This document shows positions 381-13,852 of a stretch of 13,852 nucleotides of DNA, piece after piece; the first letter of the stretch is position 1; each line of letters opens with the position of its first letter. The notes below the pieces were generated by a model. The model had not been told where the DNA came from. It searched no databases and worked only from the letters and a program-made list of their open reading frames with translations. This stretch comes from Leucogyrophana mollusca (Eukaryota > Basidiomycota > Agaricomycetes > Boletales), in assembly GCA_021014945.1 (NCBI GenBank), contig MU266743.1, positions 1-13,852 of the forward strand, given 5' to 3'. Position numbers and translations under genes: made by a program.

Positions 381-388
381 TATAAAAT
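381..388 (+). promoter_or_regulatory. TATA box of the questin-oxidase-like gene
   Basis: TATAAAAT lies 47 bases upstream of the ATG at 428. That spacing is usual for a fungal core promoter, leaving a short leader of roughly 15-20 bases. The assignment rests on motif and position only. Confidence 0.6.
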
Positions 389-427
389 GGATGGAGATGC
401 CTCAAGCTTCTCTCAGCAAGATCCACC

Positions 428-2183
428 ATGAACAAAGCAAACATCGAGAAGCTCGAAGAATTATTCCCCAGCCCATCTCCTCCCCCTAATCATATCTGTC
501 CTCAAAGGCTTCCAGGTAGCAATCTTGAATCTGACCGAGTACTGCAAGATATCCTGAAGAAGAACCACACGGACTCTCACATTTTACGGAATGAAATATC
601 TTACCAGAAGTGCGTCTGGGAAATTGATACGCCACTCACCGGGAACTCATGCACAGCGCGATTTTGTAGCCATATTTCGCACCATGTGCTTGCATTGTAC
701 GCCCTGGGCGGAAGCGCCCCTGTTCTCGAGGCAGCGTATAATGAAGATAATAAGAAGCAACGAGCCAACTTTGAGTCCCCAGAAGTGATCACCGAAGGGA
801 ACTTCAGTCTCCATCTGGGTGATCACAAGTAAGCAGCATAAACCTCGGATACCTTAGGTCACCACAATGCTGACTGGGGCGGCGTCGGATCCACCAGGTA
901 TTACCAAGCCTACTTCAATTTCTTTAGCGCATACGTGCTTGAGAACGGCGCGGGTGCTGCCATGGAAGAGTTCGTGTTTTCTTTGAAGCGTAATTTCGAC
1001 CCCGAGAACGATCCCGAAGGCAAGGAACAACCTGAGATGTTGTACCGCTTTGTGATGGACGGACTCCTGCATCCAATGATCCATGTTGGATATGGAGTGG
1101 AGTTTGGCTTGCCGGGTCTGGTCGCTGAAGGTGCGTGCATGATTCGTTGAGGCGGGTACGCGATGCAGCATTTATTGGATCGGCGGGTTAGGTCTTGCTA
1201 TGGCCGCGCTCCATAGAGGTAGATCGAGTGTCGTATATCCACCATCTTTATTCTCCTCCGGGATGCCAGAGGAAATCGCGTCAACAACGCCACGCCTTCC
1301 AGACACCGCCATTGGCAATATTGAAGGCCTTGCTACAAAACATGAAACACACGCCTTTAGCGTGTTATCGCGTCTCCTGAAAGACGAGCATTTCGATCCC
1401 ACGAAATGCAATTGGCCGAGGGAATACCCCGATTTCATGCTAGTAGCTGGAGGCCTCATGCGCGACTACGGAGAGCAGTGGTCAATCGATCTTTCGAGGC
1501 CTGGCGAGCTTGAAAGGAAGATAGAGGAGCTAAGCTGGATGAATGTGTTAATTTATGGGGTCAGTGCCTGGAAGGAGGAGCGTGGTCTACGAGCTGACTT
1601 CATCCTGTGAGCTGACCCACCATAGTATATCGCTCGCCGCTCATCTTGTTTCTTTGTGCAACACAGAATGCACATTGTCACTTCGGCGCTCTTCCTGCCC
1701 TCCCTCCTTTCGACCTTGTCCCCGCGAAGCCAAGCCATACTCCTCAGGGCACACTTTACTGCGTCATTAGTGCAATGGGTCATGCGCGGGAGGCCCAGCT
1801 TCCCCATCAAGACCTTCTTTGCCACCACTTCCACGCTCCCCTCCACACCTTCTGACAGCCAACCCACCCCATCCGCTAAAGCTTTGCCTTCACCAACCTC
1901 GCCTCATGCCTTCACTCCCAACCCATGGCTACCGATCATTGAGAATGCACTCGTCCACCCAGACGATCATCTTTGCAAGCTGCAGCGCGCGCTGGTGCAC
2001 TTTGAGCGGGTATATGGGACGCGTGGCCCTGGATATTTTGCGGGGACAGAGTTGGAGGAGGCCGAGTACATTGATGGATCACTTTTTGTGAGGGTTGCAG
2101 GAATGACGGCTGGCCAGCTTGGATGGGTTAGGGAAGGACAGGAAGCGCGAGAATTCACCTTTGATGCGTTCTTCGATGATTGA
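428..2183 (+). CDS. Questin oxidase-like protein (DUF4243 family)
   Basis: Five exons: 428-609, 670-828, 898-1130, 1192-1606 and 1667-2183. The four GT-AG introns are 60-69 nt. The exons sum to 1506 nt, giving 501 aa plus stop. Family hallmarks are restored only after splicing: NHISHH at residues 61-66 followed by the ALYALG helix, [14 protein letters not shown] at about 110-122, [15 protein letters not shown] at about 170-184, LIYGVSAW near the end of exon 4, then NPWLP and ALVHPDDHL, and GYFAGTELE near the C-terminus. A Ser/Pro/Thr-rich low-complexity linker lies in exon 5 before NPWLP. Members of this family include fungal questin oxidase, which opens an anthraquinone ring by Baeyer-Villiger-type chemistry. 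The family is expanded in basidiomycetes and most members have no known substrate, so substrate and pathway are not assigned. The conserved histidines may form the active site, but this is not shown here. The gene converges with the F-box gene. No frame damage is seen. Confidence 0.88.
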
Positions 2184-2589: not shown

Positions 2590-3682
2590 TCACTCGTCGT
2601 CATTCCAAGAAGCCCACTTGTCGTCTCTTCGGAACCATACGACACCCTTTGGCAGAATGATCGTCTTGAGCGTCGGACATGCCCTATGCCACGCTGCCGC
2701 GACGGCACGCTCGTCTTCCGCTGAATCCGGGACACCGGGCGCCATAAATGTGAGATATTGCAAGTTGGTGAAGCTCGACAGGGCGGAACCACAATCGGTA
2801 AGAGTTCCCTAGGAGCTCAAAAGGTCGTGAGGACAAAGTCGTCGATAATCAAGCGCGAAAACCCACTTGTGTAGGAGGCGCCATCAATATCATGATATGC
2901 AATGCCTCCAACCCAGACAAACGTTTCGCGACTTCAGGAATAAGCATCTTCGGCTCCCCAGTCTCAAACGACATGACCGTCAACCGTTTGAGCTCCTTCG
3001 ACGATTGAAGGAGAGCATCAAGAGACGCGCTGGTGTCTCCAGGTGACAACGATATTGAGACGTTTTCGACGGGGCGGCCGCGAACTACGGTAGCTGTAAC
3101 GGCCGGGCAGGGAAGGACCGTACGGAACGCCGATAGGTTAGGCATGGCGGTGGGAGGGAGATGGAACTCGTCCGTGAACTCAGAGCTGCGGAGGGAGAGT
3201 TCTCGCATCCGGGTTTGTGTTGAAAGGAACGAAGCGAGATCTTTGTCGCACTTGAAAGAAGTGGTGAAGCACTTTAGTTGGACAGAGCATCCACCAAATA
3301 TCCACGAGATATCAGCATTGTTGTAGAGAGACGAGAACTCAAGCGCGAGAGAATGTAGTAATTTGAGACGCTTTAGAGCATGATTGAGCAGGCGTAGAAG
3401 GTTGCCTGTGACATGACTGTCAGCCCATCCGAGCTCGAGATGACGGACGAGGAGAGCGTGTGCATCATTCTGCGAGAGGGTTTTTACGACCTGGGTTGCC
3501 CTGAGAGGTGAGAGTTCCGATATCGAGCGATAGAGCACTCGAGAAGCGATACTGTGAAAGAATGAGCTTGTCCGCAAAATCACGCCAAGGTCATTGCGAG
3601 AGACGTCGCCGAGAATGAGCTCGAGAGTCTCGTTAGGGAGAACGCATATTGACGATAGAGGTCTGAAAGCTGAGGTGCGCAT
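2590..3682 (-). CDS. F-box protein with short LRR-like C-terminal part
   Basis: Two exons on the minus strand: 3682-2867 (272 codons) and 2808-2590 (72 codons plus stop), giving 344 aa. The intron at 2866-2809 is 58 nt and phase 0 (GTGGGT...TAG). Residues about 14-54 (LPNETLELILGDV through LYRSI) form an F-box, the segment that binds Skp1 in SCF ubiquitin ligases. The rest has leucine-rich, weakly repeated segments. The C-terminus after splicing (FTNLQYLTFMAPG, then AWHRACPTLKTIILPKGVVWFR) matches the usual ending of the very large basidiomycete F-box/LRR family. Without the intron the frame stops early at 2849. The target protein cannot be told from sequence. The start is the first ATG before the F-box. 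Such genes are scattered through these genomes, so I infer no link to the peptide genes. Confidence 0.82.
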
Positions 3683-3761
3683 GAACTACCCCACGATGAT
3701 GGTCCAGGTGCAAGTTGCATTTCAGTCAAGTCCAACAGATAATTCAGAGGCCTGAGGATTT

Positions 3762-3852: not shown

Positions 3853-5079
3853 CTACTGGACCTTGACGGTTTTGGGCGCGCTGCCTTCAGCGATCGCCTC
3901 TGCCCGCAAGCCCTCTGCCTCAATCTCAGCTATAAGCTGCCGTTCAGCAGCCTCTTGCTCAGCTTTGCTCTTGTTCTTCATCGCCGCCTTGCTCGCGTTA
4001 ATACGAGCGCGATACTCCCGATACTTGTCGTCCGTGCCGAAAATTCGGTCGCACCACCGGAAGGATGTGGAGTAGTTGTTCGTGAAGGCCATGTGGTGGA
4101 AGTCATGGTGCTCGGCGCCGGACCAGAATGGGATGATATGCTGGAGGGACCACGGGAAATCTATAATGGCGCTAATGAGTCAAAATCGAGTATTTTCGCA
4201 AGGCCACGTCCTTACCATAACCGCTGTGAGCGTCGATGGCTTGGAAAAGGCGGAGTGTAATCCAGATGTACACAGTGAATATGTGCAGGTTGTGTGTAAA
4301 GTAGCAGTAGAGCAAGGGGCCGGCTATAGTGCCAGTTCCAAGGATGAAAACCTCCGCTGGGTGGGCATACTCCGCTGCCAAGCCGAAAGGAGCGGAGTAT
4401 TTGTGGTGGATCTTGTGGATATGCTTGTATAAAGCACCAGTATGCAACGCTTGGTGAGCTGTAGAATAATTCCACCATTAGAGTCAACTTTCATCACGGG
4501 AAAGAGCAAACGCACCAAAGTAATGAAACATATCCTCAAAGATGAAGAAAAACGCTATTTGCGGGAGCATAGTCTTCCACGAGGGGAACGGAACCTGGTG
4601 CGTAGCCATACCAAACGATTCTGCCATAGGGTGGAACAACCAAATCTATATGCGCTTCAGCTCAGGCTTTGCTAGACGGTCTATGTCAGAAAACTTACAG
4701 CCGGCAGCTCAATCGTGAAATGAGAGAATAAGACCTGCTTCGTACATTCCCACTGCTCTTGTGGGGTAGGTATCTTGTTAGGCTGAAGTTTCCACTTTTG
4801 GAAGTACGGGATGGCGTCGATGATGATCCAGGGGATGGAACGGCCGAAGTAAACAATCTGACGCGACGCAGGAGTTGTTTAGCAAGAATAAAATAATAAG
4901 AATACAGCAAATCCCACCTCGTGAAGGAGGAAACTCATGAGTCCCGTCGCAATGATCGGGTTGTCTATCCATAAGTACCAAGCAGCCCACTGCTGCTCAA
5001 TCCAGCTAAGCGTTGAGAAGTCGACGTTCGCATAGATCTGCTGTGCGGTTTGATGCACAACCGTCGCGTTCATAGACAT
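3853..5079 (-). CDS. ERG25: C-4 methylsterol oxidase (ERG25-like)
   Basis: Five exons on the minus strand: 5079-4918, 4857-4699, 4645-4516, 4458-4216 and 4160-3853. The introns are 53-60 nt and the exons sum to 1002 nt, giving 333 aa. The protein belongs to the fatty acid hydroxylase superfamily of di-iron membrane enzymes. Three histidine boxes are present: HYFAH (148-152), HKIHH (165-169) and HHDFHH (249-254). Between them are ERG25 signatures such as [14 protein letters not shown] and [20 protein letters not shown]. The known role of ERG25 is stepwise oxidation of the C-4 methyl groups of 4,4-dimethylzymosterol in the endoplasmic reticulum during ergosterol synthesis. The C-terminus carries a Lys/Glu/Ala-rich, probably helical tail (about residues 275-325), which I recall as longer than in yeast Erg25. 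The start is ATG at 5079; the upstream in-frame extension has no ATG. A paralogue with another substrate is possible. I cannot tell whether this is the only copy in the genome. Confidence 0.9.
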
Positions 5080-5973: not shown

Positions 5974-6984
5974 TCAAGGGGGGGAAGGGAGGTCAACACT
6001 ATCTTCCAACCGAACCACCTTGGATTTCGGGACAAAAACGCGATTGGCGTCCACCCAGTCTAAAACCTTCTCAAAATTTCGGCACTGGTGCTGGATGTTG
6101 AAGTTAGGGAATGGATCCTCGGACCCCTCCATCCAGTCGTAAGTGATCATTGTCACATCCCCGCGACACATGATATTCTGCCTCATCATTTCGATGCAGT
6201 GATCTGAAGAAACGCGCTAAGCGGCGGATGGGCCGGACAGAGAAGACACATACCGACGTGCGTGCGGAATGCTTCAGGAGTGTCATGGAAGGAATGGTCA
6301 GAGTGCTTATAATGCTCTCCCCACGTGATCTTACGCAGCAGATCCTACAGGTATGTGAGCAGGATTGATCAGACCCAGGGTGATACACTTACTACACAGT
6401 GAAGTTGGTGAATGACCTCAACCGTTGCCATGTAACCTCCGCCATATTCATCCGGGAACTTGGCCATGAAAGGAAGCGGTTCCTCGCCGGTTCTGAGTAG
6501 CTGGTCAAGTGTCATGCGAGTTGGTCGCGCTAGAGAATCACTGCGTGAGTCGTCACCATCGCGAGCACAAGCAAGACGGCGTACAATCGTGAGATACTCT
6601 CTCCCAAGCAGCATCGACCTCAGGGGAGGGGCTGCCACGATATATGGAGGGAGCGCCGAGACTGCCGTTGAACCTTATGGTGCCGATGGATTCTATAGCT
6701 TCGTTTGCTGGTGCTGTGACGGGTAAGTAAGGTCTGCACGCCGCTATGTTGATCCACTTACAGTATAGAACTAGGGCGTCAGGCGAGGGGGCCAACATCC
6801 ACAGAGTGAAAAAGACCATCGATGCGCATATCAAGACGCCGTGACTCAACCAAGGCAGCAGACGAAGGAAACGGGAATTCGGACGAGGTTCGGCAGAGAA
6901 TCCCTCTACACCATCATGATGAAGTTTCGCCTCGTCGTCGTCAACCCCACCGATAGGAGAGTACTGAGAAGATGCTTGGAACAT
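5974..6984 (-). CDS. UstYa-like oxidase 1 (DUF3328)
   Basis: Five exons on the minus strand: 6984-6762, 6713-6585, 6529-6393, 6344-6254 and 6203-5974. The introns are 48-55 nt and the exons sum to 810 nt, giving 269 aa. An N-terminal cytosolic segment (QYSPIGGVDDDEAK) is followed by one membrane segment at about 46-66. Next come the family core (YSPANEAIE, RFNGSLGAPSIYRG, RPTRMTLDQLL, YGGGYMATVEV) and the two signature HxxHC motifs, HQLHC (158-162) and HVDHC (192-196), then MRQNIMC, DVTMITYDW and HQCRNFEKVLDW. In ascomycetes UstYa-family proteins carry out oxidative cyclisation of ribosomal peptides (ustiloxin, asperipin, phomopsin type), with the HxxHC motifs as likely metal ligands. In basidiomycetes the family is numerous and mostly uncharacterised. 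Both motifs are intact, so the protein is probably active. It is a duplicate of the gene at 9193-10259. The peptide precursor at 13475 is the obvious candidate substrate, by inference. Confidence 0.9.
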
Positions 6985-9192: not shown

Positions 9193-10259
9193 CTATCCGT
9201 CATGATCATGATGATTCGTGCCGTGGTGGAAAGGTAAAGGTAATTTGACTGTATCTTCGAGGGGTGTGACTTCAGATTTAGGGATATGGACAGCATGTGT
9301 TGTGGCCCAATCCAATATCTTCTCGAAGTCTCTGCACTGATGGCGAGTGTTGAAGTTAGGATAAGGGCTGGTGCGTCCTTTCACCCAGTCCCAGGTGATC
9401 ATCGTCACATCGGCATTGCACATGACGTTCTGCCTGACCATCTCGATGCAATGATCTGGAGGGGACATCGTGATAAGCAGGAGGCGCGTTAGGCGAGACG
9501 TAGATATACCTAGATGCATGCGGACTACCTCAGGGGTGTCTTGAAAAGAAGGCTCAATACTCTCATAGTAATCAAGCCAGGATGCTTTGCGAAGCATGTT
9601 CTGCGGATTTGTAAGAAACAGCTGGGTTTCCAATGGATGCGGCTTACCAGGCAGTGTAGCTGATGAGTGGATTCCAAGGACACCATAAAACCCCCGCCGT
9701 AACTGTCCGGATACTTGACCTTTGACGGGGAATTTACCTCGCCTGCTCTGAGCATCTGGTCAAGTGTCATACGCGTCGGTCGCACTGGAGGTCTGCACGT
9801 TGATCAAGTACCTTGGGGAAGAGTTTGGATAACGCACCATCGTGAGATACTCTCGCCCAAGCGGCATCGAGCTCGGGGGAGGGATGACCGCGATAAATGG
9901 AAGGGAAGTCGAGGGTTCCGTTGAACCTCACAACATGAGATTCCACAGCAGTGTTTGCCGGGGCTATGACAGGAGGCGTTAGATCCATGGGCCGGCCGTC
10001 TAATGCTGTCTCGCCACTCACAGTATATAGGAAGATGTTCGTGCACATACGTCGAACCTGTCTCCATCCATAGCGTGAAGAAGAGCAACGATGTGCACGC
10101 AAGGATACCGTGGCTCAACCACGATGGGAATCGAAGGAACCGGGGCTTAAGGCGACTTGGGGGTGTGGCAGGAAACCCTTCCGCACCACTGTGAAGGAGT
10201 TTCGCCTCGTCGTCGTCGACCCCACCAACGGGAGAATACTGAGAGGGTTCTTTGAACAT
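9193..10259 (-). CDS. UstYa-like oxidase 2 (DUF3328)
   Basis: Five exons on the minus strand: 10259-10022, 9963-9838, 9784-9648, 9600-9510 and 9455-9193. The introns are 47-58 nt and the exons sum to 855 nt, giving 284 aa. The architecture copies that of the UstYa-like gene at 5974-6984: a short cytosolic N-terminus (QYSPVGGVDDDEAK), one membrane segment near residues 51-71, YSPANTAVE, RFNGTLDFPSIYRG, RPTRMTLDQML, then HQLHC (162-166) and HLDHC (196-200), MVRQNVMC, DVTMITWDW, HQCRDFEKILDWA and IPKSEV. All four introns lie at matching positions and phases, and exons 3 and 4 have identical lengths in both genes (137 and 91 nt). Both HxxHC signatures are complete, so an active oxidase or cyclase is expected. 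The C-terminus is longer than in copy 1 and ends in a His/Asp-rich tail (FHHGTNHHDHDG). It is the UstYa gene nearest to the repeat precursor, 3.2 kb away and divergent from it. Confidence 0.9.
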
Positions 10260-13387: not shown

Positions 13388-13395
13388 TATAAAAG
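13388..13395 (+). promoter_or_regulatory. TATA box of the repeat-precursor gene
   Basis: TATAAAAG lies 87 bases upstream of the ATG at 13475. It is a near-consensus TATA box, predicting a leader of roughly 50-60 bases. Strong TATA boxes are common on highly or conditionally expressed fungal genes, but expression is not shown here. Confidence 0.65.
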
Positions 13396-13418: not shown

Positions 13419-13448
13419 CCACCAGCACTTTCACCACCAGCACTTTCA
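13419..13448 (+). repeat. Perfect 15-bp tandem duplication in the 5' leader
   Basis: CCACCAGCACTTTCA occurs twice back to back (13419-13433 and 13434-13448), between the TATA box at 13388 and the ATG at 13475. It is probably in the transcribed leader. Function unknown; it may be a simple slippage duplication. Confidence 0.7.
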
Positions 13449-13474: not shown

Positions 13475-13852
13475 ATGCAGATTACACCTGTCTTCAGTGT
13501 CCTCGTGTCCTTTGTCGTTCTCGCCGTGGCATATCCCACAACGGGGCCCGCAAAAAGTAGGTTTTTATACTACATATCATTCATCGTCTAATTACTCCGC
13601 CAGGTGCTGATGAGCCCAAAGAGCTCGACTCCAACTTGTTTGGTTACGACTACGAGCGTCGTGAGTTTTGCACTTCTTCGCATGATCCTTGCTCGCTGAA
13701 CCCTCGCCGATAGGCGCTGACAAGCCCGAGGAGCTCGACTCTAACTTGTTTGGTTATGACTACGTGCGCCGTGAGTTTTGCCCTTCTTCGCGTGATTCTC
13801 GCTCGCTGAACCCTTGCCGGTAGGCGCTGACAAGCCTGAGGAGCTCGACTCT
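13475..13852 (+). CDS. Secreted Kex2-processed repeat peptide precursor, 3' end beyond window
   Basis: Exon 1 is 13475-13556: a signal peptide (MQITPVFSVLVSFVVLAVA, cleavage predicted before YP) plus a short pro-segment. After a 47-nt intron, repeat exons follow at 13604-13660 and 13714-13770 (57 nt each) and at 13824 onward, running off the window. Introns 13661-13713 and 13771-13823 are 53 nt, with GTGAGT donors, CTGAAC branch-like sites and TAG acceptors. Every repeat exon starts and ends in phase 1 and encodes one 19-residue unit: ADEPKELDSNLFGYDYERR, then ADKPEELDSNLFGYDYVRR, then a third beginning ADKPEELDS. RR is a kexin site, so secretory processing should release one peptide per exon. 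The constant part NLFGYDY, with an acidic spacer before it and Tyr residues suited to oxidative cross-linking, looks like the core. Architecture resembles dikaritin precursors (UstA type) and the Kex2-processed repeat proteins reported from Agaricomycetes. Two UstYa-like oxidases nearby support a modified product. The final chemistry is inference. Confidence 0.82.
13604..13852 (+). repeat. Tandem 110-bp exon-plus-intron repeat array (continues past window)
   Basis: Units begin at 13604, 13714 and 13824, an exact 110-bp period made of a 57-nt exon and a 53-nt intron. By direct count, the first two exons differ at 9 of 57 positions and the two introns at 6 of 53. The third exon differs from the second at 1 of the 29 visible bases. 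Introns are thus at least as conserved as exons, pointing to recent duplication or homogenisation of the whole unit. The number of further units is unknown. Confidence 0.92.

Follow-up and report, generated by a model that had tools for sequence, protein, structure and literature searches.

The gene that starts at position 13475 of the window, the 13852-base stretch of DNA analysed here, is very probably a dikaritin-like (UstYa-associated, Kex2-processed repeat) precursor of a boletalean fungus whose repeat takes the form of an exon-intron module. The genome sequence itself establishes the module anatomy, the presence of three paralogous genes and their adjacency to six UstYa genes. In the mechanism that we propose, whose Kex2/Kex1 processing and UstYa cross-linking steps are taken from established dikaritin knowledge, modules of about 110 nt would be spliced and the resulting 57-nt phase-1 exons joined into a secreted polyprotein, Kex2 would cut after RR or KR at every former exon border, Kex1-type trimming would yield peptides such as ADKPEELDSNLFGYDYV, and the two co-located UstYa oxidases would probably cross-link the Tyr-containing core. 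At the DNA level, the arrays would grow or shrink by whole exon-intron modules. The layout of one tiny exon per peptide copy is unusual, and it may explain why such genes get overlooked.

Anatomy of the precursor gene

The window represents the entire contig C417 of the 32.3-Mb genome (545 contigs) of Leucogyrophana mollusca, a wood-rotting relative of the boletes (Basidiomycota, Agaricomycetes, Boletales). The gene of interest (gene A) lies on the forward strand with its ATG at 13475, and the right end of the window, which is also the end of the contig, falls within its third unit. A TATA-like box, TATAAAAG, with a putative promoter function, is located about 80 nt 5' of the ATG (13388..13395, forward strand) and is identical upstream of gene A and of its two paralogues, B and C, the upstream regions of which also share long conserved blocks. 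Just 5' of the ATG, the window further carries a perfect 15-nt tandem duplication (13419-13448), the second copy of which has diverged in B and is missing in C.

Exon 1 (13475..13556, 82 nt) encodes the leader MQITPVFSVLVSFVVLAVAYPTTGPAK plus the first base of the next codon; the leader is conserved in B and C, and the segment MQITPVFSVLVSFVVLAVAYP, likewise conserved across the three genes, was judged by eye to be signal-peptide-like. Intron 1 (13557..13603, 47 nt) runs from GTAGGT to CAG and contains a CTAAT branch-like site. It is followed by exon 2, or unit 1 (13604..13660, 57 nt), which encodes ADEPKELDSNLFGYDYER and the first base of a split Arg codon, by intron 2 (13661..13713, 53 nt, GTGAGT...TAG), by exon 3, or unit 2 (13714..13770, 57 nt), encoding ADKPEELDSNLFGYDYVR and again the first base of a split Arg codon, and by intron 3 (13771..13823, 53 nt, GTGAGT...TAG). 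Exon 4, the start of unit 3 (13824..13852), encodes ADKPEELDS and is cut by the contig end after 29 nt. All these exons and introns are on the forward strand. The spliced product, MQITPVFSVLVSFVVLAVAYPTTGPAKS-ADEPKELDSNLFGYDYERR-ADKPEELDSNLFGYDYVRR-ADKPEELDS, is stop-free, and the unspliced gene has stops in all three frames. Raw six-frame open reading frames near 13475 were ruled out as the gene because these unspliced frames carry stops. Tandem Repeats Finder reports a 110-nt unit at 13602-13852 with 88% matches; since 110 is not a multiple of 3, the units can be joined in frame only if the 53-nt stretch is removed. The initial annotation had placed a gene at 13475 with 19-residue repeats, each in its own 57-nt exon, and with 53-nt introns, and this was borne out by the open spliced frame and by the repetition of the design in the paralogues.

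A public model of gene A exists (BV22DRAFT_1134383, here P0121; 82 residues). It contains the leader, and its first 66 residues coincide with spliced gene A after removal of introns 1 and 2, both of which are absent from the model; beyond these residues the model continues into intron 3, the last codon of which supplies its stop. P0121 and the model of a neighbouring UstYa gene (P0001) are placed on a public contig of 17846 bases, as against the 13852 bases analysed here, and the longer public contig may therefore extend beyond the right end of the window.

Paralogues, introns and selection

Both paralogues reside on contig C364 of the same genome. Of the nine matches that a DNA search of the genome returned, eight lie on C364 and the ninth in the window; a protein search at E<=10 returned at least 16 matches, every one within genes A, B and C. 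Gene B (start at C364 12292, minus strand) is complete, with ten units followed by a degenerate last exon (RAKLEELV and a stop), and gene C (start at C364 3089, minus strand) comprises four complete units, with a fifth passing into a run of Ns. Ten units in B thus compare with at least three units begun in A and at least five in C. In all 16 complete units of the three genes, an AG and a GT enclose exactly 57 nt, and the recurrence of this arrangement in two paralogous genes, with 14 more complete units, is beyond what chance would produce at the sequence level. The claims that each peptide has its own exon and that these exons are symmetrical, in phase 1, were based on gene A and hold for the 16 complete units alike.

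The relationship between exon borders and processing sites is more nuanced. The dibasic site between units is RR in A and B and KR in C, and the codon split at the unit border is the Arg of the dibasic site in A and B and a Ser or Thr codon following KR in C; the proposed splitting of the second Arg of RR by the intron is hence a property of A and B and not of C. The predicted coincidence of exon borders with processing borders was confirmed, the borders being no more than 1-3 nt away from the predicted Kex2 cut, and it breaks down ahead of the first unit of gene A, where the leader-unit 1 junction reads KS (13553-13605) as opposed to KR in B and C. Gene A is thereby left without a dibasic site ahead of unit 1, which may remain joined to the propeptide.

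The predicted introns share several further features. The 16 repeat introns measure 51, 52, 53, 54, 56 or 60 nt and fall into all three length classes modulo 3; despite this, changes in unit length are confined to the introns. Together with the three leader introns, all 19 predicted introns follow the GT-AG rule, and each contains, 11-21 nt from its 3' end, a branch-like site (YTDA), a loose motif scored with no chance control. In gene C, 15 of the 57 exon columns vary among the four units, and 13 of these 15 are third codon positions (p=3e-5) and none a second position; the peptide encoded by units 2, 3 and 4 is the same. In the introns of this gene, 35 columns vary out of 49 that are free of gaps (p=5e-6 against the exons), and another 13 are gapped. 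Third positions also account for 9 of the 14 variable exon columns in gene B (p=0.02). Elsewhere, the identity of introns and exons is closer (86% and 93%, respectively, in comparisons within B; 84% and 86% between A and B), and in the single comparison within A the introns are more alike than the exons (89% against 84%). The argument for selection hence rests mainly on gene C, which offers a clean example of duplicated exon-intron modules whose introns have diverged and whose peptide has stayed fixed. As judged mainly from that gene, the predicted exons are under purifying selection, and the introns much less so. From these patterns, we strongly infer that the 57-nt exons are spliced in vivo.

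The same observations bear on the idea that the arrays are decaying or non-expressed pseudogenes and their design a relic of tandem duplication. Such an origin would be in keeping with the missing dibasic site in gene A, with the truncation of gene A in public annotation and with the failure to find proteins for B or C among the best candidates scored. It is, however, very improbable in view of the third-position bias, of the peptide shared by units 2-4 of gene C despite their diverged introns, of the conserved upstream region with its TATA box and of the fact that none of the 16 complete exons contains a stop or a frameshift.

Within one gene, the units encode nearly one peptide with a common core, which is FGYDY in A, LSYDY in B and FVYDY in C, with two Tyr residues in each. 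The first unit combines an N-terminal half that is common to the paralogues (AD[QE]PKELDS) with a core half that follows its own gene, a pattern that fits either gene-wise homogenisation of the arrays or selection for one core per gene. In a FastTree phylogeny of the 16 units, the genes do not form clean clades, and the units of A and C branch within those of B, beside B10. The initial annotation had also suggested that copy number or the mix of peptide variants could change. The first part is upheld by the different copy numbers of the paralogues, and the second is weakened, since near-identical units with a single core per gene leave little to mix. The ten units of B against the numbers in its paralogues, together with the homogeneous cores within each gene, support changes in copy number by gain or loss of whole exon-intron modules, as far as sequence comparison can tell. 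Three-unit higher-order repeats were considered in gene B, where the intron of unit 1 seems paired with that of unit 6 and the intron of unit 2 with that of unit 5, and were discarded; the lag test is weak (p=0.11 at lag 3; best of lags 1-5, p=0.04), and no specific history of unequal crossing-over is therefore claimed.

An extension of the preferred reading, and not an alternative to it, would make gene A a regulated exon-module gene in which skipping of phase-1 exons varies the dose or the mix of peptides, by analogy with schistosome micro-exon genes. Each of the 16 complete exons is symmetric, being 57 nt long and bounded by phase 1 on both sides, so that any subset of them would preserve the frame. 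Against this, the near-identity of the units within each gene offers little mix to select from, so that skipping would tune dose more than kind, and 12 of the 16 repeat introns would halt translation if retained, which fits constitutive removal. The other four (B10, C1, C2 and C4) have a length divisible by 3 and no in-frame stop, and their retention would preserve the frame. On balance, we consider regulated skipping quite doubtful. A broader synthesis, in which the exon is the unit of both processing and evolution, dikaritin-like modules expand, contract and homogenise, regulated skipping sets the dose and the layout hides the precursors from protein mining, seems unlikely when taken as a whole.

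UstYa cassettes and public proteins

The initial annotation had compared gene A with dikaritin precursors, and two UstYa genes near it give it a dikaritin-like context. The first (9193..10259, minus strand; 284 aa) comprises five exons (10259-10022, 9963-9838, 9784-9648, 9600-9510 and 9455-9193), matches PF11807 with E=8.1e-60 and encodes the motifs HQLHC and HLDHC. The second (5974..6984, minus strand; 269 aa) also has five exons (6984-6762, 6713-6585, 6529-6393, 6344-6254 and 6203-5974), a PF11807 match with E=1.2e-58 and the motifs HQLHC and HVDHC. Two HxxHC motifs are a hallmark of DUF3328/UstYa proteins. Both genes are on the strand opposite to gene A, at distances of 3.2 kb and 6.5 kb 5' of its ATG, and their spliced frames are open. 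The public L. mollusca model BV22DRAFT_899365 (P0001) is identical to the first of them once 18 extra residues are set aside; these residues correspond to the retained last intron (54 nt) of the gene.

Contig C364 harbours two further UstYa pairs, each adjoining a precursor gene. In the first pair, the spliced frames are open and encode 284 and 269 residues. The second pair is represented by the public proteins P0002 (from L. mollusca) and P0016, of which 238/275 and 223/260 10-residue words, respectively, are present at the locus, the gaps amounting to about four junctions' worth. The genome therefore contains three cassettes, in each of which a precursor is accompanied by two UstYa genes. 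Along 4.9 kb, the UstYa region of the window shares 94.8% identity with the first C364 cassette, and precursor A is closer to B (83%) than to C (73%). By these identities, the history of the cassettes is mosaic, with the UstYa region and the precursor having their nearest counterparts in different cassettes.

Across the whole genome, UstYa searches yielded at least 35 matched stretches, several per gene, on about 17 contigs. Tandem Repeats Finder and self-BLAST were applied to 23 UstYa loci (L018-L040), 20 of them outside the window contig and C364, and ten more flanking pieces (L058-L067) were subjected to self-BLAST, four of them also to Tandem Repeats Finder; all 33 pieces were scanned in six frames for evenly spaced dibasic sites, a scan run with no positive control. 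No precursor was recognised in the UstYa flanks examined outside C417 and C364, and no array of exon-intron modules was seen in the 33 pieces, which cover mostly 1.5 kb flanks and gave, besides short repeats, no more than a single unrelated repeat in two copies. The latter (L026, 2412-2556, on contig C140 near a UstYa gene) consists of two 67-nt copies, 78 nt apart and 92.5% identical, with one His-rich frame, and was not flagged by the dibasic-site scan. As to other genes of the window, consecutive open frames at 386-2183 (forward strand) match the questin oxidase-like family PF14027 over profile positions 3-340 and apparently belong to one multi-exon gene. On the minus strand, 2849-3685 has an F-box-like match below the cut-off and 4172-4477 a fatty acid hydroxylase match (PF04116) above it.

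A further reading holds that these genes encode Kex2-processed repeat proteins giving rise to linear peptides with signal, repellent or surface roles, and that the adjoining UstYa enzymes act elsewhere. In the consulted parts of PMC7329392, DUF3328/UstYa genes are found next to 30% of ascomycete and 6% of basidiomycete repeat precursors (103/1680 in the latter), and the authors propose that the cyclisation motif differs in basidiomycetes or that cyclisation hardly occurs there; linear Kex2-processed repeat peptides are known in Agaricomycetes, according to the parts of PMC9769878 considered. An exon-wise search of the genome for tyrosinase, moreover, gave one weak match on contig C5 and none on C417 or C364, so that a nearby tyrosinase gene was not found. 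The pairing of each of three precursors with two UstYa genes and the two Tyr residues in each of the three cores speak, on the other hand, against linear products, and we regard this reading as rather unlikely. The low basidiomycete figure in those parts of PMC7329392 also admits a testable alternative explanation, namely that precursors with numerous 57-nt exons may come out fragmented from gene prediction. Two observations bear on this: the public model of gene A ends after 82 residues, and a 225-residue query for full-length gene B had no match at E<=10 among public proteins, with the best 7994 candidates scored. A query with the precursor alignment (a profile) found three public proteins among the best 7990 candidates scored, and B and C had no public counterpart in either search (best 7994 and 7990 candidates, respectively). 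Scanning genomic DNA for short exon-intron modules next to UstYa genes could then uncover further fungal cyclic peptides.

Relatives and comparison with known systems

A search of public proteins with the UstYa gene gave 195 matches; among the 120 listed, the named ones are mostly from Suillus, and the others from Hygrophoropsis, Rhizopogon, some Agaricales and polypores. Hygrophoropsis aurantiaca has a UstYa locus with the identifier BJ138DRAFT_1166726. The precursor profile led to two Suillus proteins that resemble A-C in leader and spacer. Both have the same type of leader and a repeated EELDS(N/D)L spacer, with a repeat spacing of about 15 residues in S. cothurnatus (BD769DRAFT_1421887) and of 28 and 22 residues in S. 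ampliporus (DFH29DRAFT_952457). In the tail of the S. ampliporus protein (P0123), a shifted frame is compatible with KREEL twice more, once as KREELDSNLV; when 120 control proteins were put through the same comparison, none of the 60,382 window-shifts fitted KREEL. From their sequence, these frame-shifted copies could reflect mis-joined exons. The distance between the two copies is 22 residues, too short for an intron to fit in, and the one-exon design may therefore not extend to relatives. A Suillus-based protein query of the L. mollusca genome gave no match and also missed genes A-C; it is thus uninformative.

With respect to dikaritin precursors (ustiloxin, phomopsin and asperipin-2a, of the UstA type), the L. 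mollusca genes share tandem Tyr-containing cores, dibasic Kex2 sites (save for the KS ahead of unit 1 of A) and, beside gene A, two adjoining DUF3328/UstYa genes with two HxxHC motifs each; by eye, their leader also looks like the signal peptide of such precursors. They differ in that each unit is its own exon, a trait known here from the L. mollusca genes alone, in their basidiomycete host, in their organisation into three precursor-UstYa-UstYa cassettes and in having no tyrosinase near the C417 and C364 precursors. The original five-gene definition of dikaritins, as given in the parts of PMC12048977 consulted, takes in tyrosinase and methyltransferase genes. The cores FGYDY, LSYDY and FVYDY are also unlike the dikaritin cores YAIG, YVIG and YVIP mentioned in the consulted sections of PMC7329392.

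In their near-identical repeats flanked by Kex2 sites, and in a secretion signal judged by eye, the genes resemble KEX2-processed repeat proteins (KEPs) at large. Like the Agaricomycetes KEPs described in the sections of PMC9769878 and PMC7329392 considered, their products would be secreted, repeated and cut at dibasic sites (KR, RR or KK in those proteins), whereas most basidiomycete KEPs have no nearby UstYa genes (PMC7329392, in part). A word search of the KEP papers PMC9769878, PMC7329392 and PMC6339444, as far as their text was covered, found no exon modularity and a single mention of 'intron', in a methods section. Nor is the exon structure of Kex2-type precursors described in the consulted parts of these three papers or of PMC12048977, PMC9233826 and PMC7099791. 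More generally, the parts of the open-access literature covered yielded no account of a fungal Kex2-processed precursor with a separate exon for each repeat, which is a weak negative. According to PMC9233826 (in part), high intron density hampers the recognition of amatoxin-type cluster genes in basidiomycetes unless transcriptomes are at hand.

A likeness in gene layout comes from schistosome micro-exon genes, in which, according to the consulted parts of PMC10526429, secreted proteins are encoded by many very short exons; the reference list of that paper includes a title starting 'Tandemly Repeated Exons Encode'. As in those genes, secreted-protein genes of L. mollusca would be built from arrays of very short, symmetric exons (57 nt, phase 1-1 in all 16 complete exons), a likeness that we take as analogy and not as homology. 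The schistosome genes belong to animal parasites, have introns of 100 to almost 5000 nt and are not Kex2 polyproteins (PMC10526429, same parts). Hence, judging from the literature covered, arrays of short exons in secreted-protein genes were already known from schistosomes (PMC10526429), and what appears to be new is the assignment of one exon to each repeat in a fungal Kex2-type precursor.
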